Assembly: GCA_001724275.1 (NCBI GenBank)
Contig: MEDZ01000024.1
Coordinates: 1-64,000, forward strand
Direction: 5' to 3'
Length of the DNA: 64,000 nt
From: Gemmatimonadetes bacterium SCN 70-22
GTDB lineage: Bacteria; Gemmatimonadota; Gemmatimonadetes; Gemmatimonadales; Gemmatimonadaceae
Positions 134 to 7,225 of this stretch are shown here, in pieces. The translations under genes and the position numbers were made by a program. The notes under the pieces are model-generated. The model saw only the letters and a program-made list of their open reading frames with translations. It ran no database searches and was not told where the DNA came from. Positions within the stretch are counted from its first letter, which is position 1; every line of letters starts with the position of its first letter.

Positions 134-1498
134 ATGCAAGTATATCTCGAGAGCAAACTGGGCGCAGGTTCCTTCGCTGATATCTGGCGCGGGCGTGACG
201 AGATAGCCCGGCCGGTGGCCGTGAAGATCGTTCGTCCGGATGATGCCTTTGGAACGCAGGCGGTAGCCCATGCGCGCGCACTGGCTCAGGTTGATCATCC
301 CAACGTTGTCAAGGTCTTCTCGATCGAGCGTGTTCCGGATCCTGAGCGCCCGGAGAACGACGTCACATGCGTCGTCATGGAACTCATCGAAGGGGAGACT
401 CTTGGCAATAGACTGTCCGAAGGCACATTGACCGCCGATGAAGCCGCGTCGATCGGGCGTCAGCTCGTGGAAGCGCTTCGACACATGACGACTCGAATGG
501 TTGCTCACGGTGATCTCCATACCGAGAACATCATGCTCAGCGGCACAACCGTTAAGGTGATCGACATTCTCTATCTCTCGGGCACTGGCCAGCTGTCGGC
601 TTCTTCTTTCGACAAGCGCGTTCGGCGAGACCTACTTAGTCTTCGCCTCGTGCTGTCCGAGCTCCTACAGTCGCTGGAGCACGGCGCTTCGGCGGCCGCG
701 AGGTTTCACGCACTTCTCGGCGCGGACGCGGATCTGGATGGCATCGCAGGCGCATTCGATCAGGCCGCCGGCAGCCCTCGGTTCGTAGACGTTGAGCACG
801 AAGTCTGGACGGCCCTCAATCGCATGAGTGATTCCGCCTTCGTGGATACTCCTGAGTACGCTGAAGCACTGGCCGAAGAGATTCCTAGCGAGGCGCACGG
901 GCCATTGCTTCGACAGATCGTTGCACAGGGTACGTGCGGTCAGCCTCATCGCGCGTTCGTGACAACTCTCTGGCGGCAACTGCAGCCGAGTGCTCGGCAA
1001 GGGGTGCTTGAGGATCTTCAAGTCGCGCTGGACGAGCGACTACCCAAGGGGCGGTGGTGGCCACTCCTCCACGTGCTTGCTGCCGTTGGTGCTGAGGGCT
1101 GGTCAGGTCTCCGCACTACCACGCGCCTGAGAACTGAGAAGCTCATCGTAAACGACGTTCTCGCAGGACACGTGGACATTTACAAGCCGGGGCCGAGTCG
1201 ACTAAAGGGTGGCCAGCTTGGCACATGGGCCCAAACGTTCTACCGGTATTTCTCTGATCGAGAGCGCCTTGTCAGTAACCTCGCGTCTCTGCTGCGCCAA
1301 AGTTGGTACACCCAGAACTATGTCGCGGAGTATTTCATGCACATTCTGGCATCGGTGGCGACATCAGATGCTCAGCGCAAGCTACTGATCAGTGCCCTCG
1401 TGGTGGCTGTTCGCAACGACGCACGTATCGTCATCAACAGGCTCAACCTTCTGCCCGCCGAATGGTCGCGCGCGGTTCAGAAGGAGACCGCGCCCTAA
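134..1498 (+). CDS. Protein-kinase-like protein with unknown C-terminal domain (cassette gene)
   Basis: This 454-residue protein starts with a eukaryotic-type kinase fold: glycine loop LGAGSFADIWRG (residues 9-20), ATP-anchoring Lys31 in VAVKIV, and a catalytic loop HGDLHTEN (125-132) with Asp127 and Asn132 kept. The magnesium motif DFG is replaced by Asp144-Ile-Leu, and the activation segment is short. The fold therefore looks complete, but activity is uncertain. Residues from about 210 to 454 form a mainly helical region I do not recognise, with no membrane segment. An AGAGG ribosome site lies just before the ATG. The TAA stop overlaps the first box of an attC-like site, as expected for an integron cassette gene, and its GC content is clearly lower than the rest of the window. 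A role in signalling or phage defence is a guess. Confidence 0.8.
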   Translation: MQVYLESKLGAGSFADIWRGRDEIARPVAVKIVRPDDAFGTQAVAHARALAQVDHPNVVKVFSIERVPDPERPENDVTCVVMELIEGETLGNRLSEGTLTADEAASIGRQLVEALRHMTTRMVAHGDLHTENIMLSGTTVKVIDILYLSGTGQLSASSFDKRVRRDLLSLRLVLSELLQSLEHGASAAARFHALLGADADLDGIAGAFDQAAGSPRFVDVEHEVWTALNRMSDSAFVDTPEYAEALAEEIPSEAHGPLLRQIVAQGTCGQPHRAFVTTLWRQLQPSARQGVLEDLQVALDERLPKGRWWPLLHVLAAVGAEGWSGLRTTTRLRTEKLIVNDVLAGHVDIYKPGPSRLKGGQLGTWAQTFYRYFSDRERLVSNLASLLRQSWYTQNYVAEYFMHILASVATSDAQRKLLISALVVAVRNDARIVINRLNLLPAEWSRAVQKETAP

Positions 1499-1585
1499 CT
1501 GGCGCTGGAGCAGACAGCCGATCTACTGTGTGCTCGCTTCGCTCGCTCTATTGCCTTCGGCCGCAGCTGATACTCAACGTTGGGC
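1492..1585 (+). other. Integron attC-like recombination site 1
   Basis: The site runs from the R'' box GCCCTAAC, which contains the stop of the kinase-like gene, to the R' box CGTTGGGC, 26 bases before the next start codon. It shares the stretch CTGGCGCTGGAGCAGAC with site 3 (one or two changes) and the inner CTCGCTTCGCTC segment with site 2. The outer boxes are inverted copies of each other, and the L'-side reads GCAGCTGATACTC. Position, boxes and family resemblance to two other sites all fit attC. I could not compute the single-strand fold. Confidence 0.75.
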
Positions 1586-1611
1586 GGACGATTCGGCATG
1601 CTGGGATTGCA

Positions 1612-2148
1612 ATGCTTCACTTCCTCTTCCGTCTTGTCCCGATCGGGATCATCGCTAGCTCCCTCGCGCTGGCGGGCTGCCGTGGCGCTGCAACGATCCG
1701 ATCACCCCAGGCTGGCAGCGCGCCCATCGACAGGCGCTTGGCTCATGGTACTGCTTACGCCCTATGTCTCGACTTTACTCGGGACTCGGCCGCGTTGCGA
1801 TCGTCTATGGGGCGCTTGCTTGTCTTGTTCGACTCCGTACCAGCACGAGACACGCTACAATACGGCTTGAACTTGCTTGCAGAGTGGTGGCGCGATACAA
1901 CTGATCGGATTCCGGCAGCTATCGGAGCATGGAGCGGCAACCCAATTGGTGGGAAGTACCAGCCCACGTATGCGGTCTATACGAGGACGGATTCGGCGCA
2001 AGTCATGATGGGCATCAACGTTGTTGATGGCAGACTCGTCGCGCTCGCGAGAGTGTACCCTCCGCACGCCACCTCTGGCAGCGGCAATGACCAGCCGCTC
2101 CTACACGGTACTCCACAGCGTTGTCGCCGCTCACCCTATGCCGCCTAA
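1612..2148 (+). CDS. Small lipoprotein of unknown function (cassette gene)
   Basis: This is a 178-residue predicted lipoprotein. An N-terminal hydrophobic signal ends in the lipobox LALAGC at about residues 14-19. The rest has no motif I recognise, although it contains a short WWRDTTDRIP stretch and a mixed soluble composition. The reading frame is open further upstream, but that extension runs through attC site 1 and the end of the kinase gene, so I chose the first ATG after the recombination site. The TAA stop sits inside the R'' box of attC site 2. It is probably the single gene of its cassette, exported and anchored to a membrane. Confidence 0.6.
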   Translation: MLHFLFRLVPIGIIASSLALAGCRGAATIRSPQAGSAPIDRRLAHGTAYALCLDFTRDSAALRSSMGRLLVLFDSVPARDTLQYGLNLLAEWWRDTTDRIPAAIGAWSGNPIGGKYQPTYAVYTRTDSAQVMMGINVVDGRLVALARVYPPHATSGSGNDQPLLHGTPQRCRRSPYAA

Positions 2149-2259
2149 CGTGCGTTGCAGCGGCCGGCGGAGCCTTGGAATGCGCGCAGGCACTCGCTCC
2201 GCTCGTCTCCAGCGCGCAGTCCTATTGGTTCCGCCGCAGCTGAACGCCATCCGTTAGGT
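2143..2259 (+). other. Integron attC-like recombination site 2
   Basis: This is the clearest of the attC-like sites. It starts with R'' GCCTAACG, overlapping the lipoprotein stop, and ends with R' GTTAGGT. Between them the two arms form a long imperfect palindrome: GCGTT, GCAGC, GGCGGA and GCGCGC on the left are matched in reverse order on the right, with single unpaired bases as in true attC hairpins. The right arm carries GCAGCTGAACGCC, and the following ATG is 22 bases downstream. Confidence 0.82.
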
Positions 2260-2281
2260 TGCGCACGAAGGAGGGTGCACG

Positions 2282-2848
2282 ATGAGTCTTTCGCAGCGAC
2301 GCCGGTCCATCGGAGTATCGTCGCTTCTCTGGGGCGGCGCGTGGGCCGTCGCGTTCACAGCAGTCGAGTCAGTTGCTGTGCTCGGAACGGCCCCCAGCGG
2401 GTCGGCAACCACGCAGCTCGTCGACGTGCTGTCGCGTGTCGCAGCATCCGGCGCAGCCTGGGGCCTAGTCGCGGGTGCAACCTTCGGCGTCGTGTTCGGT
2501 TGGATGCAGCGCGGGCGACACCTTGCTCACCTGTCGCGAGGCAAGGCGGCCCTGTGGGGTGCGGTCGCTGGAGCCGCGGTACCTGCGCTCGAGCTACTGA
2601 ACGCTCTATCGCGTGCAGCGGGACCCATCTCATTCCGATGGGGCGCGGCGGCGCTTGTTCCTTGTCTTGGCGCAATCTCCGCCGCAGCCGCCGTGCACGT
2701 GGCCACTCGTACTTCCCGCTCGTCTCCCGATCCAGACGTCCTCCCTGCTTCCCTGCGTTCCGAACTGTCCGCCGGTCTTGCGAACTTGTCCGATCTGGCG
2801 GCGAGCGCGACAGAACGACAGCCCGCGATGCGACCGCCCGCAACCTAA
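2282..2848 (+). CDS. Small integral membrane protein, unknown function (cassette gene)
   Basis: This 188-residue protein has about four hydrophobic segments (roughly residues 14-34, 52-72, 88-110 and 118-142), followed by a hydrophilic Ser/Ala-rich tail of about 40 residues. A strong GAAGGAGG ribosome site precedes the ATG, which follows the R' box of attC site 2. I do not recognise the family. The stop codon lies in AACCTAAC, which resembles an attC R'' box, but I find no matching R' box after it. The downstream recombination site may have been lost or rearranged. Confidence 0.65.
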   Translation: MSLSQRRRSIGVSSLLWGGAWAVAFTAVESVAVLGTAPSGSATTQLVDVLSRVAASGAAWGLVAGATFGVVFGWMQRGRHLAHLSRGKAALWGAVAGAAVPALELLNALSRAAGPISFRWGAAALVPCLGAISAAAAVHVATRTSRSSPDPDVLPASLRSELSAGLANLSDLAASATERQPAMRPPAT

Positions 2849-3011
2849 CTCTAGTAAGGCGCGCCACGGTCGATGCGTCTGCCTCGCTCAATCTTCACCT
2901 TCCCGGGATGTGGCGTGCCATATCGTGCGGCAAGCGCAGCGACAAGAGGGGGCGTCGCGCAGTGACGGATCCGGCTATCGCGAGGTCCGATATTGCATGC
3001 ACTGGCCCTCG

Positions 3012-3572
3012 ATGCGAATGGTACGCCGCCTGGGATTCGGTTGGGCGCTTGGTAGCCTCGCAATCGCGCCGGCGTCGGTGTCCGCGCAGCGAGCACGGTA
3101 CGTCGCGCTCGACGCCACCGCCGGGGTTGCGAAGGGGTTCGGGGGCGGGCCAGCGTACACCGCTCGAGACTTCCTGGCGGGAGATCTGCTGCTCTCGCTC
3201 CGGTGGCGCGGCAAATCGGGCCATTCGCCCGTGGTGGCGGTGAGTACGGGCATTGCTACGCGTAATGGTGATGAGGCGTGCGCGGTGCCGTGCCCCGTTC
3301 CCTATCCGCGTTTTCGGTACCACGCAGTACATGTGGGTTGGGAGCTGTTGAGCACACGTGGGGCGAGCCTCCGGACCCTGGCAGGAGCGAGCTGGGACGC
3401 AAACAGATACCACGTCGAGGACAGACGTCCGGGCTGGCATGTCCGAGGGGACGCCGCGAGTCCCGCCGTCGGGATCGTCTCGTTGGTCGCGTACATCCAG
3501 TCGCATGCCGCGACTAGCGGTCCGTCGGGACTCGGGATGTGGGGTGGGGGCGTCGGCCTTCGGCTTCGGTGA
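3012..3572 (+). CDS. Secreted protein, possible outer-membrane beta-barrel
   Basis: This is a 186-residue product with an arginine-led signal peptide (GWALGSLAIAPASVSAQ, cleavage expected near residue 26). The mature part is rich in alternating polar and hydrophobic residues and aromatics and ends in GVGLRLR, which suggests a small beta-barrel or beta-rich envelope protein. Two close ATGs (3012 and 3018) could serve as start; an earlier one exists at 2997. The frame continues open upstream through the previous gene's tail, which I treat as chance. It lies between the membrane-protein cassette and the worn attC site 3. Confidence 0.55.
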   Translation: MRMVRRLGFGWALGSLAIAPASVSAQRARYVALDATAGVAKGFGGGPAYTARDFLAGDLLLSLRWRGKSGHSPVVAVSTGIATRNGDEACAVPCPVPYPRFRYHAVHVGWELLSTRGASLRTLAGASWDANRYHVEDRRPGWHVRGDAASPAVGIVSLVAYIQSHAATSGPSGLGMWGGGVGLRLR

Positions 3573-3619
3573 CCGCCGAACCGGGGGGGCGGCTCACCCC
3601 GCGAGCTTTATCGAACCGC

Positions 3620-3712
3620 GCCTATCTGGCGTTGCAGCAGACGCCGCGTAGCTTCGGATGGCTCTCCGCTGCGCTCCGGGCGTCATTGGATGCGGCGCAG
3701 TTGAGCTTGGGC
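3620..3712 (+). other. Degenerate attC-like site 3
   Basis: This has the same architecture as sites 1 and 2: GCCTATCTGGCGTTGCAGC at the left, a CTCCGCTGCGCTCC centre, and GCAGTTGAGCTTGGGC at the right, with CGCCGC/GCGGCG pairing in the arms. Both core triplets are mutated (AAC to ATC on the left, GTT to CTT on the right). An integron integrase should therefore cut it poorly or not at all. It marks an older cassette boundary before the membrane protein at 3766. Confidence 0.65.
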
Positions 3713-3765
3713 GTGACGCTGATCGTCGCTGCGGCATCACACAGCGTGCTCACCTGCGAGGCGTC

Positions 3766-4662
3766 GTGACTACTCCTGCCGTGTTCTGGCCGGTTCTCCT
3801 AGGCCTGGGATGTCTCATCGCCGGAATCGGCTTGGCCCGGCGACGTGGGCACGAACACGGACGGCGCGAGCCTTCCCGGCTCTCGGCCTTCGGCCCGACA
3901 TTCGTCGGGGCAGCGCTGGCGGCGTTCGCGGGAGTCCACTTCACCGCCGCCGCAGCGATCGCCCAGCTCGTTCCCGCCTTCCTCCCCGCGCCGCTTGCGA
4001 TCGCCTACCTCGTGGGGGTCGCGCACCTGGCCGCCGCGCTGAGCTTCGTCACCAGGCGATACGTCGTCTGGTCGTCGATCGGTCTCGCCCTGATGTTCGC
4101 GCTGTTCGCGCTGCTCATGGACCTGCCAGCAGCGATGGCGCGGCCGTCGGGTCGGCTCGGTTGGATTCTCGCGGCTCGCCAGTCGATATTCGCGGTAGGC
4201 GCGTTGGCGCTCTTTGCAACCGAAACGAAAGGACGGTGGCCACACGCGTCCCGTCAGGTAGCGATGATCGCCCGGTTCTGGACCGCAGCTGTGCTCGTTT
4301 TCTACGGCACCGATCATCTCCTGCACCCCACGCTCTCACCTGGCGTGCCCAGCACGATGCCCATCGCCGCGTGGATCCCGCTACCTCACGTGATGGGGTA
4401 TGGGACGGGCATCCTGCTCTTGGCCTGTGGTATCGCCATGCTCATCACACGCTTGGCGGGCGCCGCCGCGGCGCGGTGCGGCGAGTTGATGACGCTGCTC
4501 ACCGTCGTTCTCTACGTGCCGCAGTTCTATATCGCGCGTGACGTCGGGGCACGCGTGACGGCGATCAACTTCGTGTTCGACACGCTGCTGTTCGCCGGCA
4601 CGGTGCTCATGATCAGCAACGCGATTCTCGCGACGAAGGTGCATGACACCACGGACGCTTAG
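3766..4662 (+). CDS. DoxX-like multi-spanning membrane protein
   Basis: This is a 298-residue protein with about eight membrane segments arranged as two similar halves. Each half has an aromatic/histidine segment (AGVHF, YGTDHLLHP), a proline-rich loop (LVPAFLPAP, MPIAAWIPLP) and a glycine-rich helix, which resembles the DoxX/DoxD-like fold in tandem. The role of such proteins is poorly defined; some act with thioredoxin-like or stress proteins. The start is uncertain. The GTG at 3766 keeps the first hydrophobic helix intact and clears attC site 3, whereas the longer open frame from 3658 would run through that site. It is the last clearly cassette-bounded gene. Confidence 0.6.
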   Translation: MTTPAVFWPVLLGLGCLIAGIGLARRRGHEHGRREPSRLSAFGPTFVGAALAAFAGVHFTAAAAIAQLVPAFLPAPLAIAYLVGVAHLAAALSFVTRRYVVWSSIGLALMFALFALLMDLPAAMARPSGRLGWILAARQSIFAVGALALFATETKGRWPHASRQVAMIARFWTAAVLVFYGTDHLLHPTLSPGVPSTMPIAAWIPLPHVMGYGTGILLLACGIAMLITRLAGAAAARCGELMTLLTVVLYVPQFYIARDVGARVTAINFVFDTLLFAGTVLMISNAILATKVHDTTDA

Positions 4663-4671
4663 CCGGACCCT

Positions 4672-5006
4672 ATGGGACGCCTGACCATTCGCCGCCAGAT
4701 GACGCTCGACCGTGGCGGCGACCATCAGAAGTAAAGCGCCGCCAACGAGACGCACGCCTTCTTCACTCGACTGATGGACCTGAATGGGGCGATGTTGTGC
4801 GGCGGCGTCACTTACGAGATGATGAGGAGCTACTGGCCGGCGGGCACCCGCGGCGACGAGGGCACGCGCCGCCCGCGATGTGCGAGCGGGCGGTCACGCT
4901 TGACGCCACGCCGAAGTACGTAGTGTCATCGACGCGAGCCGTCGTGCTGCTCGGGAACGGCAAGCTCGAGACTGCACTGGACAGGTTGGATGTGATCGAC
5001 GAATGA
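4672..5006 (+). pseudogene. Broken RibD/dihydrofolate-reductase-like gene
   Basis: These are fragments of a DHFR-like (RibD C-terminal) protein. The first frame reads MGRLTIRRQMTLD, hits a TAA at 4732, then continues as a recognisable middle with GGVTYEMMRSYW. After a frame change between about 4852 and 4878 the end is found in another frame as TPKYVVSSTRAV and a short tail. One nonsense codon plus one frameshift argue for a decayed gene rather than an error. An intact member of the same broad family lies at 6587-7225. Confidence 0.6.
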
Positions 5007-5130
5007 TGGGTCGTCGCGGCGGACGCGGACCACGGCAGTCGGCAGGTCCGGGGGCAACTCGCTCCGCCTGAGAAAGCGTGACGCGGAAGTGCAGCCTAAC
5101 CGATGGAGTCGTTGCAGCGAGGGCATCGAG

Positions 5131-5823
5131 ATGCCGGAGCCATCAGGACCTGCTGACCATCCATTCCGCGGTCGGGCCCCTACCAGTCACGAGCGGCTGG
5201 CGGGACGCCCGTGGGACGCGTCGTATCAAGAGGGAACGCCGCCATGGGAGATTGGCCAGCCGCAGCCCGCAATGGTTCGTTTGGCAGCTCGGGTCCGATT
5301 CGCCGGCCCCGTCCTCGATGCTGGCTGCGGGACCGGTGAGCACGCGCTCTACGTGGCGTCGCTCGGACTCGCGGTGTGGGGCGTCGATGTGGCCGAGACC
5401 GCGCTGGAAGTCGCGCGGAAGAAAGCGCATGACCGTGGGCTGCAATGTACGTTCGCGCTGGTGGACGCGCTTCACTTGGAGCGATTGGGGCGCGAGTTCA
5501 AGACGGTGCTGGACTGCGGACTCTTTCACACCTTCGACGGCGAGGAGCGACTGCGGTACGCTGCGAGTCTCGCCTCGGTGACGGCGCCTGAGGGAACCCT
5601 CCATGTGCTGTGCTTCAGTGACGAGGGTCCCGATCCAGGCCCGCACCCCATCAGTCAGGAAGATCTGAGAACGGCGTTCTGTCCCGGCAAGGGATGGCAT
5701 GTGGCCGAGGTCGAGCCGGAGCGAATCAAGACGCGGGATCCTGGCAACCGCGGCGCGCCGGCTTGGATCGCGACGATCCAGCGAGTCTCGACCGAGGATG
5801 CTGCAGAACGGGTTGGCGGATGA
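5131..5823 (+). CDS. Class I SAM-dependent methyltransferase
   Basis: This is a 230-residue predicted cytosolic methyltransferase. Motif I, VLDAGCGTGEHALY (about residues 60-73), binds S-adenosylmethionine. The acidic end of strand 2 is in VWGVDVAETAL, and LVDALHLERL and TVLDCGLFHTF match motifs II/III. The N-terminal WDASYQEGTPPWEIGQPQP is typical of the thiopurine/halide-type and related small-molecule methyltransferases, where it helps close the substrate pocket. The substrate cannot be read from sequence. The start was set at the ATG at 5131; a GTG at 5089 is possible but would read through a short attC-like motif. It probably belongs to the accessory block. Confidence 0.8.
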   Translation: MPEPSGPADHPFRGRAPTSHERLAGRPWDASYQEGTPPWEIGQPQPAMVRLAARVRFAGPVLDAGCGTGEHALYVASLGLAVWGVDVAETALEVARKKAHDRGLQCTFALVDALHLERLGREFKTVLDCGLFHTFDGEERLRYAASLASVTAPEGTLHVLCFSDEGPDPGPHPISQEDLRTAFCPGKGWHVAEVEPERIKTRDPGNRGAPAWIATIQRVSTEDAAERVGG

Positions 5824-5853
5824 ACGAGCGTGTGCGGCCTGGACCGCAGACGG

Positions 5854-6504
5854 TGTAGAGTGGACCCGACTTGATGGACGCCGATCGACCCCTGCTTTGG
5901 GAGGGGCGGCAGTCCATGAGCAAGCGGCGGAAGCCGGCCAGCGCCACGCCGTGCGAGCGGCGGAGCGTCACGGACGCGTTCGAGCAGGAAGCCGTCCGCC
6001 GGCTGCATGAGCGGCGCGCGGAGGGCGGGACCTTGGCCGACGTGGCGCGCGAGCTGGATCTCGGAGACAGTCTGCTCCGGGGCTGGGCCCAACCGTTCAC
6101 CGCGGCGGACGATACACTGGCGGCGCTCGGGAGGGTGATGGTGCGGCGTCGACCACCGGCGGGACTGAGCCATCACTCCGACCGCGGCGGACAATATGCG
6201 TGCGGGGCATACCAGGCGATGCCGACGCGGCACGGGATGCGGGCGAACATGAGCCGCAAGGACGATTGCTGGGACACTGCGGTGGCGGAGAGCTTCTTCG
6301 CTACCCTGGAGAACGAAGTGAGCCCGCGGCGACATTGGGGGACCCGCCGCGACGCCCGGCAGGCGATCTTCCGTAACATCGAGGACTGGCACAATCTGCA
6401 GCGGCGGCATGCGACCTTGGGCTATCTCAGCCCTGCGGTCTACGAGGCGCAGCGGGGCGTGACCATCATCAACCCGGTGTCCACCGAACCGGGTCAAGTC
6501 CACA
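5854..6504 (+). mobile_element. Remnant IS3-family insertion sequence with both inverted repeats
   Basis: The ends are imperfect inverted repeats (5854-5882 and 6476-6504, 21 of 29 positions matching, both starting TGT). The element is only about 650 bp, against roughly 1.2-1.5 kb for a full IS3-type element. The interior joins the start of OrfA to the end of OrfB, so the middle has been deleted. I see no convincing target-site duplication next to the ends. The element cannot move by itself. Confidence 0.75.
5916..6477 (+). pseudogene. Deleted OrfA-OrfB transposase fusion (IS3 family)
   Basis: The frame begins with the helix-turn-helix of OrfA (EQEAVRRLHERRAEGGTLADVARELDL, in which the DNA-recognition helix is evident). 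It then jumps directly to the C-terminal part of the OrfB integrase: SHHSDRGGQYA, MSRKDDCWDTAVAESFFATLENE and the end signature RRHATLGYLSPAVYE. The first catalytic Asp region of the DDE core is missing, so the protein cannot be active. The frame stays open past the element into the next gene's other frame, which I regard as a shadow. Confidence 0.75.
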
Positions 6505-6586
6505 TGCGGCCTTCGGCCGCACTCTATTGCCCTCTGCGGCAGCTCTTCCAATGCACTAAGCACCCCCTTCCTATACACTCACACCC

Positions 6587-7225
6587 ATGCCCAAGACCTT
6601 CGTCAACATCGGCCTCAGCCTCGATGGCTACATGGCACCGAAAGGCATGTCCCTCGAGCACTGGAGTACTCCTGACCACGAGAACTGGGGCGCCAAGTGG
6701 GGGGCGCTCATGGCCTGGATCCTCAGCCAACAGTACTTCCGCGAGACGCTCAAGTTCGGGACCGGGGGAGAGACGGGTCCGGTCAATGACATGGTGCGTC
6801 ACACGATGGAGCGCACCGGCGCCAACATCATGGGCAAGCGAATGTTCGAGCAGGGCGAGATCTCGTGGCCCGAGGAAGCCCCGTTTCACACCCCGGTCTT
6901 CGTCCTCACCCACGAGAAGCGCGAACCCTGGGTCCGGCCGGGGGGGACGACGTTCTACTTCGTCAACGACGGCCCGGCGCGCGCCCTGGAGCTGGCCAGG
7001 GAGGCGGCGGGCGGTCGCGACATCCGCATCTCGGGCGGTGCGGACGTGATCCAGCAGTACTTGAACATGGGTGTCGTCGAGGAGCTGGAAATCGCCCTGG
7101 CACCGGTCTTGTTCGGCGGCGGGCGGCGGCTCTTCGAGAATCTCCGCGAGCCCGGGCCGCAGTTTCGCATCGACCGAGTGCTGGATGGACCAGCCGCGAC
7201 GCACGTGCGCTATGTGCGCCAGTGA
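6587..7225 (+). CDS. RibD/dihydrofolate-reductase-family oxidoreductase
   Basis: This 212-residue protein has the DHFR-like fold of the RibD C-terminal family: the start MPKTFVNIGLSLDGYMAP, the nucleotide-pocket segment TGANIMGKRMFEQGE, a central FVLTHEKREP strand, the phosphate-binding RISGGADVIQQYL and the closing LAPVLFGGGRRLFE. Members reduce pteridine- or riboflavin-precursor-like substrates with NADPH, but most stand-alone copies such as this one have no assigned substrate. It follows the IS3 remnant and has a decayed relative at 4672-5006. Such genes are frequent in integron cassettes. Confidence 0.82.
   Translation: MPKTFVNIGLSLDGYMAPKGMSLEHWSTPDHENWGAKWGALMAWILSQQYFRETLKFGTGGETGPVNDMVRHTMERTGANIMGKRMFEQGEISWPEEAPFHTPVFVLTHEKREPWVRPGGTTFYFVNDGPARALELAREAAGGRDIRISGGADVIQQYLNMGVVEELEIALAPVLFGGGRRLFENLREPGPQFRIDRVLDGPAATHVRYVRQ

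Follow-up and report, generated by a model that had tools for sequence, protein, structure and literature searches.

A decaying fragment of a chromosomal integron cassette array at a contig start of Gemmatimonadetes bacterium SCN 70-22

What are the palindromes that separate the first genes of this DNA, and do these genes belong to an integron? The window, i.e., the whole 64,000-nucleotide stretch analysed here, starts at base 1 of contig C24, so nothing is readable to its left. An earlier note, made from the letters alone, had proposed that the genes lying between the palindromes are cassettes of a chromosomal integron. This proposal is borne out by the matches of the palindromes to a model of attC sites, by the hairpin of one of them, by an integron-integrase gene (intI) elsewhere in the genome and by attC sites on five other contigs. 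The region almost certainly represents a broken-off part of a cassette array belonging to a sedentary chromosomal integron. Although sound, the find is ordinary: a decaying, fragmented chromosomal integron, which is a gene-capture system already known from bacteria.

The three palindromes, all on the forward strand, lie at the coordinates and carry the boxes that the earlier note had given them: site 1 at 1492-1585 (boxes CCCTAAC at 1493-1499 and GTTGGGC at 1579-1585), site 2 at 2143-2259 (GCCTAAC at 2143-2149 and GTTAGGT at 2253-2259), and site 3 at 3620-3712 (GCCTATC at 3620-3626 and CTTGGGC at approximately 3706-3712). As it had also described, the R'' box of the first two sites contains the stop of the preceding gene (the TAA of the ORF at 134-1498 and the stop of the ORF at 1612-2148), and the next start codon follows shortly after the R' box (ATG at 1612, after 27 nt, and ATG at 2282, after 23 nt). 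The arm motif CTGGCG..AGCAGAC, thought to be common to all three, is found in sites 1 and 3 but not in site 2. A fourth attC had been overlooked: positions 2843-2855 (forward strand) hold a remnant made of the 13 initial bases of a site (ACCTAACTCTAGT). Four genes, all on the forward strand, precede site 1, site 2, the remnant and site 3, respectively, so that every gene has an attC behind it.

The first of these genes (134-1498) encodes a protein kinase-like protein of 454 aa (Pfam PF00069, Pkinase, E 1.6e-18), for which 59 other genomes gave no homologue at E 1e-25. The second (1612-2148) encodes a putative lipoprotein, with a signal peptide and an LAGC lipobox recognised by eye and no Pfam match; its cassette spans approximately 1580-2253. 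The third (2282-2848) is an ORF for a putative membrane protein of 188 aa that was absent from the 118 relatives searched. It has a paralogue in the same genome, in the cassette that opens contig C1 (C1:135-686, 86% protein identity). The paralogue carries a full attC (L081:684-776), and the identity between the two copies ends at 2855, where the window's remnant stops. The fourth is an ORF with a signal peptide (2997-3572, start codon uncertain, no Pfam match). Cassette genes are usually without relatives in other genomes. None of the window's cassette genes was found around the intI of a genome of the same genus (G002), which makes synteny uninformative.

A home-made finder of R''/R' pairs scored a shuffled sequence above site 1 and was too weak alone, so a covariance model (R1) was built. 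Its basis is 24 attC sites that were taken, after an integrase search, from the stretches beyond the intI genes of related genomes, and it includes no sequence of the window. Its consensus is the classical attC hairpin (seven R-box pairs and a 17-pair inner stem in which certain bases constantly stay unpaired), and compensatory changes occur in 17 of the 24 pairs. Searched over the 64-kb window, as the earlier note had advised, R1 found exactly three sites: site 1 (35.3 bits, E 3.3e-7), site 2 (56.9 bits, E 3.7e-13) and site 3 (30.1 bits, E 8.7e-6, with the match extending over 3620-3719); the best other match reached 12.6 bits (E 0.57). As a positive control, the model detects attC sites beside intI in other phyla, e.g., in Panacagrimonas perspica, Acidobacteria and Treponema denticola. 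Covariation among the sites of the genome itself was 0.385, versus 0.146 when shuffled and at most 0.093 when slid, a value that leans toward the model because the alignment was fitted to it. The pattern GCAGCTGA-N0-10-GTTRGGY has two matches in the 4.7-Mb genome, which coincide exactly with sites 1 and 2; it is weak alone because the reversed pattern matched three times. By their sequence, the palindromes are genuine attC recombination sites.

The sites differ in their state of preservation. Site 2 is intact, with its R''/R' and L''/L' boxes, its extrahelical bases, 7 of 7 R-box pairs and 16 of 17 inner-stem pairs. Site 1 keeps 6 of 7 R-box pairs and 11 of 17 inner-stem pairs, and site 3 keeps 4 of 7 and 16 of 17, with both core triplets changed (AAC to ATC and GTT to CTT). 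Decay had been attributed to the third site only; its triplets are indeed mutated, but two of the three sites are decayed: the damage lies in the inner stem of site 1 and in the core triplets of site 3. When the bottom strands were folded as single-stranded DNA, site 2 formed the canonical attC hairpin (z -3.66), within the range of intact sites of relatives (z -3.1 to -5.8), but site 1 (z +0.97) and site 3 (z +0.14) did not. Boxes and hairpin are thus found together in site 2, and sites 1 and 3 are attC-like in sequence and model score, not in fold.

Is there an integrase that could have assembled these cassettes? The earlier note had suggested looking for intI, and the gene is present in the same genome, on another contig (C16), 461 bp from the contig end. 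It matches the integron-integrase model TIGR02249 with 340 bits (cut-off 265) at C16:473-1288 on the reverse strand and is the sole gene of the genome above the cut-off; the other tyrosine-recombinase matches, on C4, C63 and C2, all fall below it. The aligned protein has the catalytic motifs and the IntI-specific insert (additional domain). It lacks approximately 45 N-terminal residues (open frame L007:461-1384 of C16), and neither of the other two frames showed a remnant of them. Because of this loss, the truncated IntI may be dead and the platform possibly no longer active. At C16:1399, 15 bp behind the open frame of intI, begins a divergent gene that was recognised by eye as VWA-like.

Approximately 300 nt past the intI stop, C16 carries CTAATTCGAG^TTATGCC, which we read as a putative attI with the cassette junction at G^TT. 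The homology of the first cassette begins there, at GTTATGCC. At the end of contig C9, the same cassette is preceded by an attC, and the identity of the two copies begins exactly at G^TTATGCC in both. The motif CTAATTCGAGTTA lies 3' of this intI, and 9 of 43 relatives have a motif of this form no more than 500 nt past the 3' end of their intI, versus 1.5% of random windows.

Further attC sites are also present in the genome: R1 detects about a dozen on five other contigs, namely C1 (six clear and two weak, the largest cluster), C9 (two) and, singly, C35, C77 and C84. Those of C9, C77 and C84 and one of C1 fold (z -2.0 to -6.8); the remaining ones that were folded do not. In addition, 85 bp of the attI region are present in a second copy on C9 (L079:7426-7510, approximately 93% identical), with other cassettes behind it; this copy may be read as a duplicated or secondary attI. 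No match to an integron integrase was found on C9.

How is the window connected to these contigs? Its bases 1-99 are identical to C1:1-99, have no other copy in the genome and contain no recognisable attC end. Likewise, C9 ends with exactly 99 bases that are identical to the start of C16 in reverse complement. When a repeat collapses, an assembler working with k=99 leaves equal exact overlaps of this kind around it. Most simply, C9 and C16 would lead into a single unassembled repeat from which C1 and C24 emerge, and bases 1-99 of the window are probably the edge of this repeat, between the attI-bearing contig ends and the array. A search for the repeat between the contigs located the 99-base edge at the start of C24 and at that of C1, and nowhere else; C16 and C24 share no ends that would join them directly, the only shared 99-mers being those of C9 with C16 and of C1 with C24. 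These overlaps suggest that the window array is joined to an attI end through the unassembled repeat. The C16 end, with intI, the putative attI and the first cassette, would very likely be the one joined to C24, directly or via C9; both the physical adjacency and past recombination by the C16 integrase are inferred. Four points speak against the integron reading as a whole: the window is without intI, and the join to C16 consists of assembly overlaps, not of a closed genome or a read; the contig that leads to C24 could be C9 as well as C16; two of the three sites fail to fold as attC hairpins; and no attC end is recognisable in the first 99 bases.

An alternative, possible but on balance unlikely, is a CALIN (cluster of attC lacking integron-integrase), i.e., attC sites lying off the intI-linked array through off-target seeding or rearrangement and moving only in trans, if at all. 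The region resembles one in having several attC sites within 4 kb on a contig without intI (a contig cut inside the array); the single attC sites of C35, C77 and C84 and the attI-region copy without intI on C9 also agree with it, and such formation has been described (PMC8618304). However, the contig begins inside the array and has its 99-base edge in common with the contig of the largest attC cluster (C1), and C16, which holds intI, and C9, with its cassettes behind the attI copy, also share such an edge, as if the four contigs met at one repeat. In contrast to a CALIN, intI is found at a contig end of this genome, and the overlaps suggest linkage to it. Somewhat less probable is a chromosomal integron with two platforms, in which the attI-region copy on C9, although it has no integrase beside it, would have acquired its own cassettes and the window array would have been fed from this secondary attI by an integrase acting in trans, which later decayed; one C9 cassette is the same as the first cassette at the integrase-side attI.

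A match to intI at E<=1e-60 occurs in 105 of 198 genomes (the window's own and relatives), and attC matches in 78 of 99, with none at E 1e-4 in the other 21. It is very improbable that the sites only look like attC and are instead rho-independent terminators, REP elements or intergenic palindromes of another kind: the sites do lie directly after stop codons, but their box sequences, the positions of their unpaired bases and the covariation of their pairs agree with attC, matches to R1 lie beside intI in many genomes and are missing from the 21 just mentioned, and an Rfam scan of the window matched no family.

To which type of integron does the array belong? In all 14 of the relatives' loci with attC matches, the array follows the 3' end of intI and is co-oriented with it, and in the genome studied here the attI is 3' of intI, as in the inverted layout. 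Many contigs of relatives end soon past the intI 3' end. The orientation of intI toward the cassettes is an atypical layout described in Treponema (PMC3607928), and inverted IntIs form a sub-clade of the soil and freshwater IntIs (PMC8352920). The integron is probably of this type. It shares with the sedentary chromosomal integron of Treponema denticola and its relatives the presence of attC sites, a simple attI and the IntI-specific insert. Unlike that integron, it is split over contigs, its IntI is truncated at the N-terminus, several of its attC sites are decayed and a further contig carries a duplicate of part of its attI region. Class 1 mobile integrons have the same recombination logic and attC anatomy. 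In contrast to these, no transposon or resistance cassettes were seen here, and the orientation of intI relative to the cassettes is opposite to the classic one.

In such a system, attC would fold into a hairpin on its bottom strand and be bound in this form by IntI, a tyrosine recombinase; the folded site would be recombined with attI or with another attC, so that a gene and its attC move as a circle. Site 2 appears to retain everything needed for this. The decay of sites 1 and 3 and the truncation of the site after cassette 3 would have frozen the cassettes in place, and the decayed sites offer a small worked example of cassettes becoming fixed genes.

A review of 2021 already lists integrons in Gemmatimonadota (PMC8618304); literature searches on integrons in this group otherwise found passing mentions only. 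The relatives of this IntI include named Gemmatimonadota (53-58% identity), with other phyla equally near. Integrons are little described in this bacterial group, yet apparently common in it, unusually so. Because arrays break assemblies, integrase, attI and cassettes end up on separate contigs, and integrons are overlooked.

Directly after site 3, the window carries a gene for a putative membrane protein without Pfam match (3769-4662), which could be either one more fossil cassette gene or the gene with which the sequence outside the array begins. Beyond it, the stretch at 4797-7225 has the look of debris adjoining the array: a fragmentary ORF (4797-5006) is apparently part of a RibD_C-type reductase, an ORF overlaps an apparent remnant of an IS3-type transposase (from 5871 on), and an intact, Pfam-tested RibD_C gene occupies 6587-7225.
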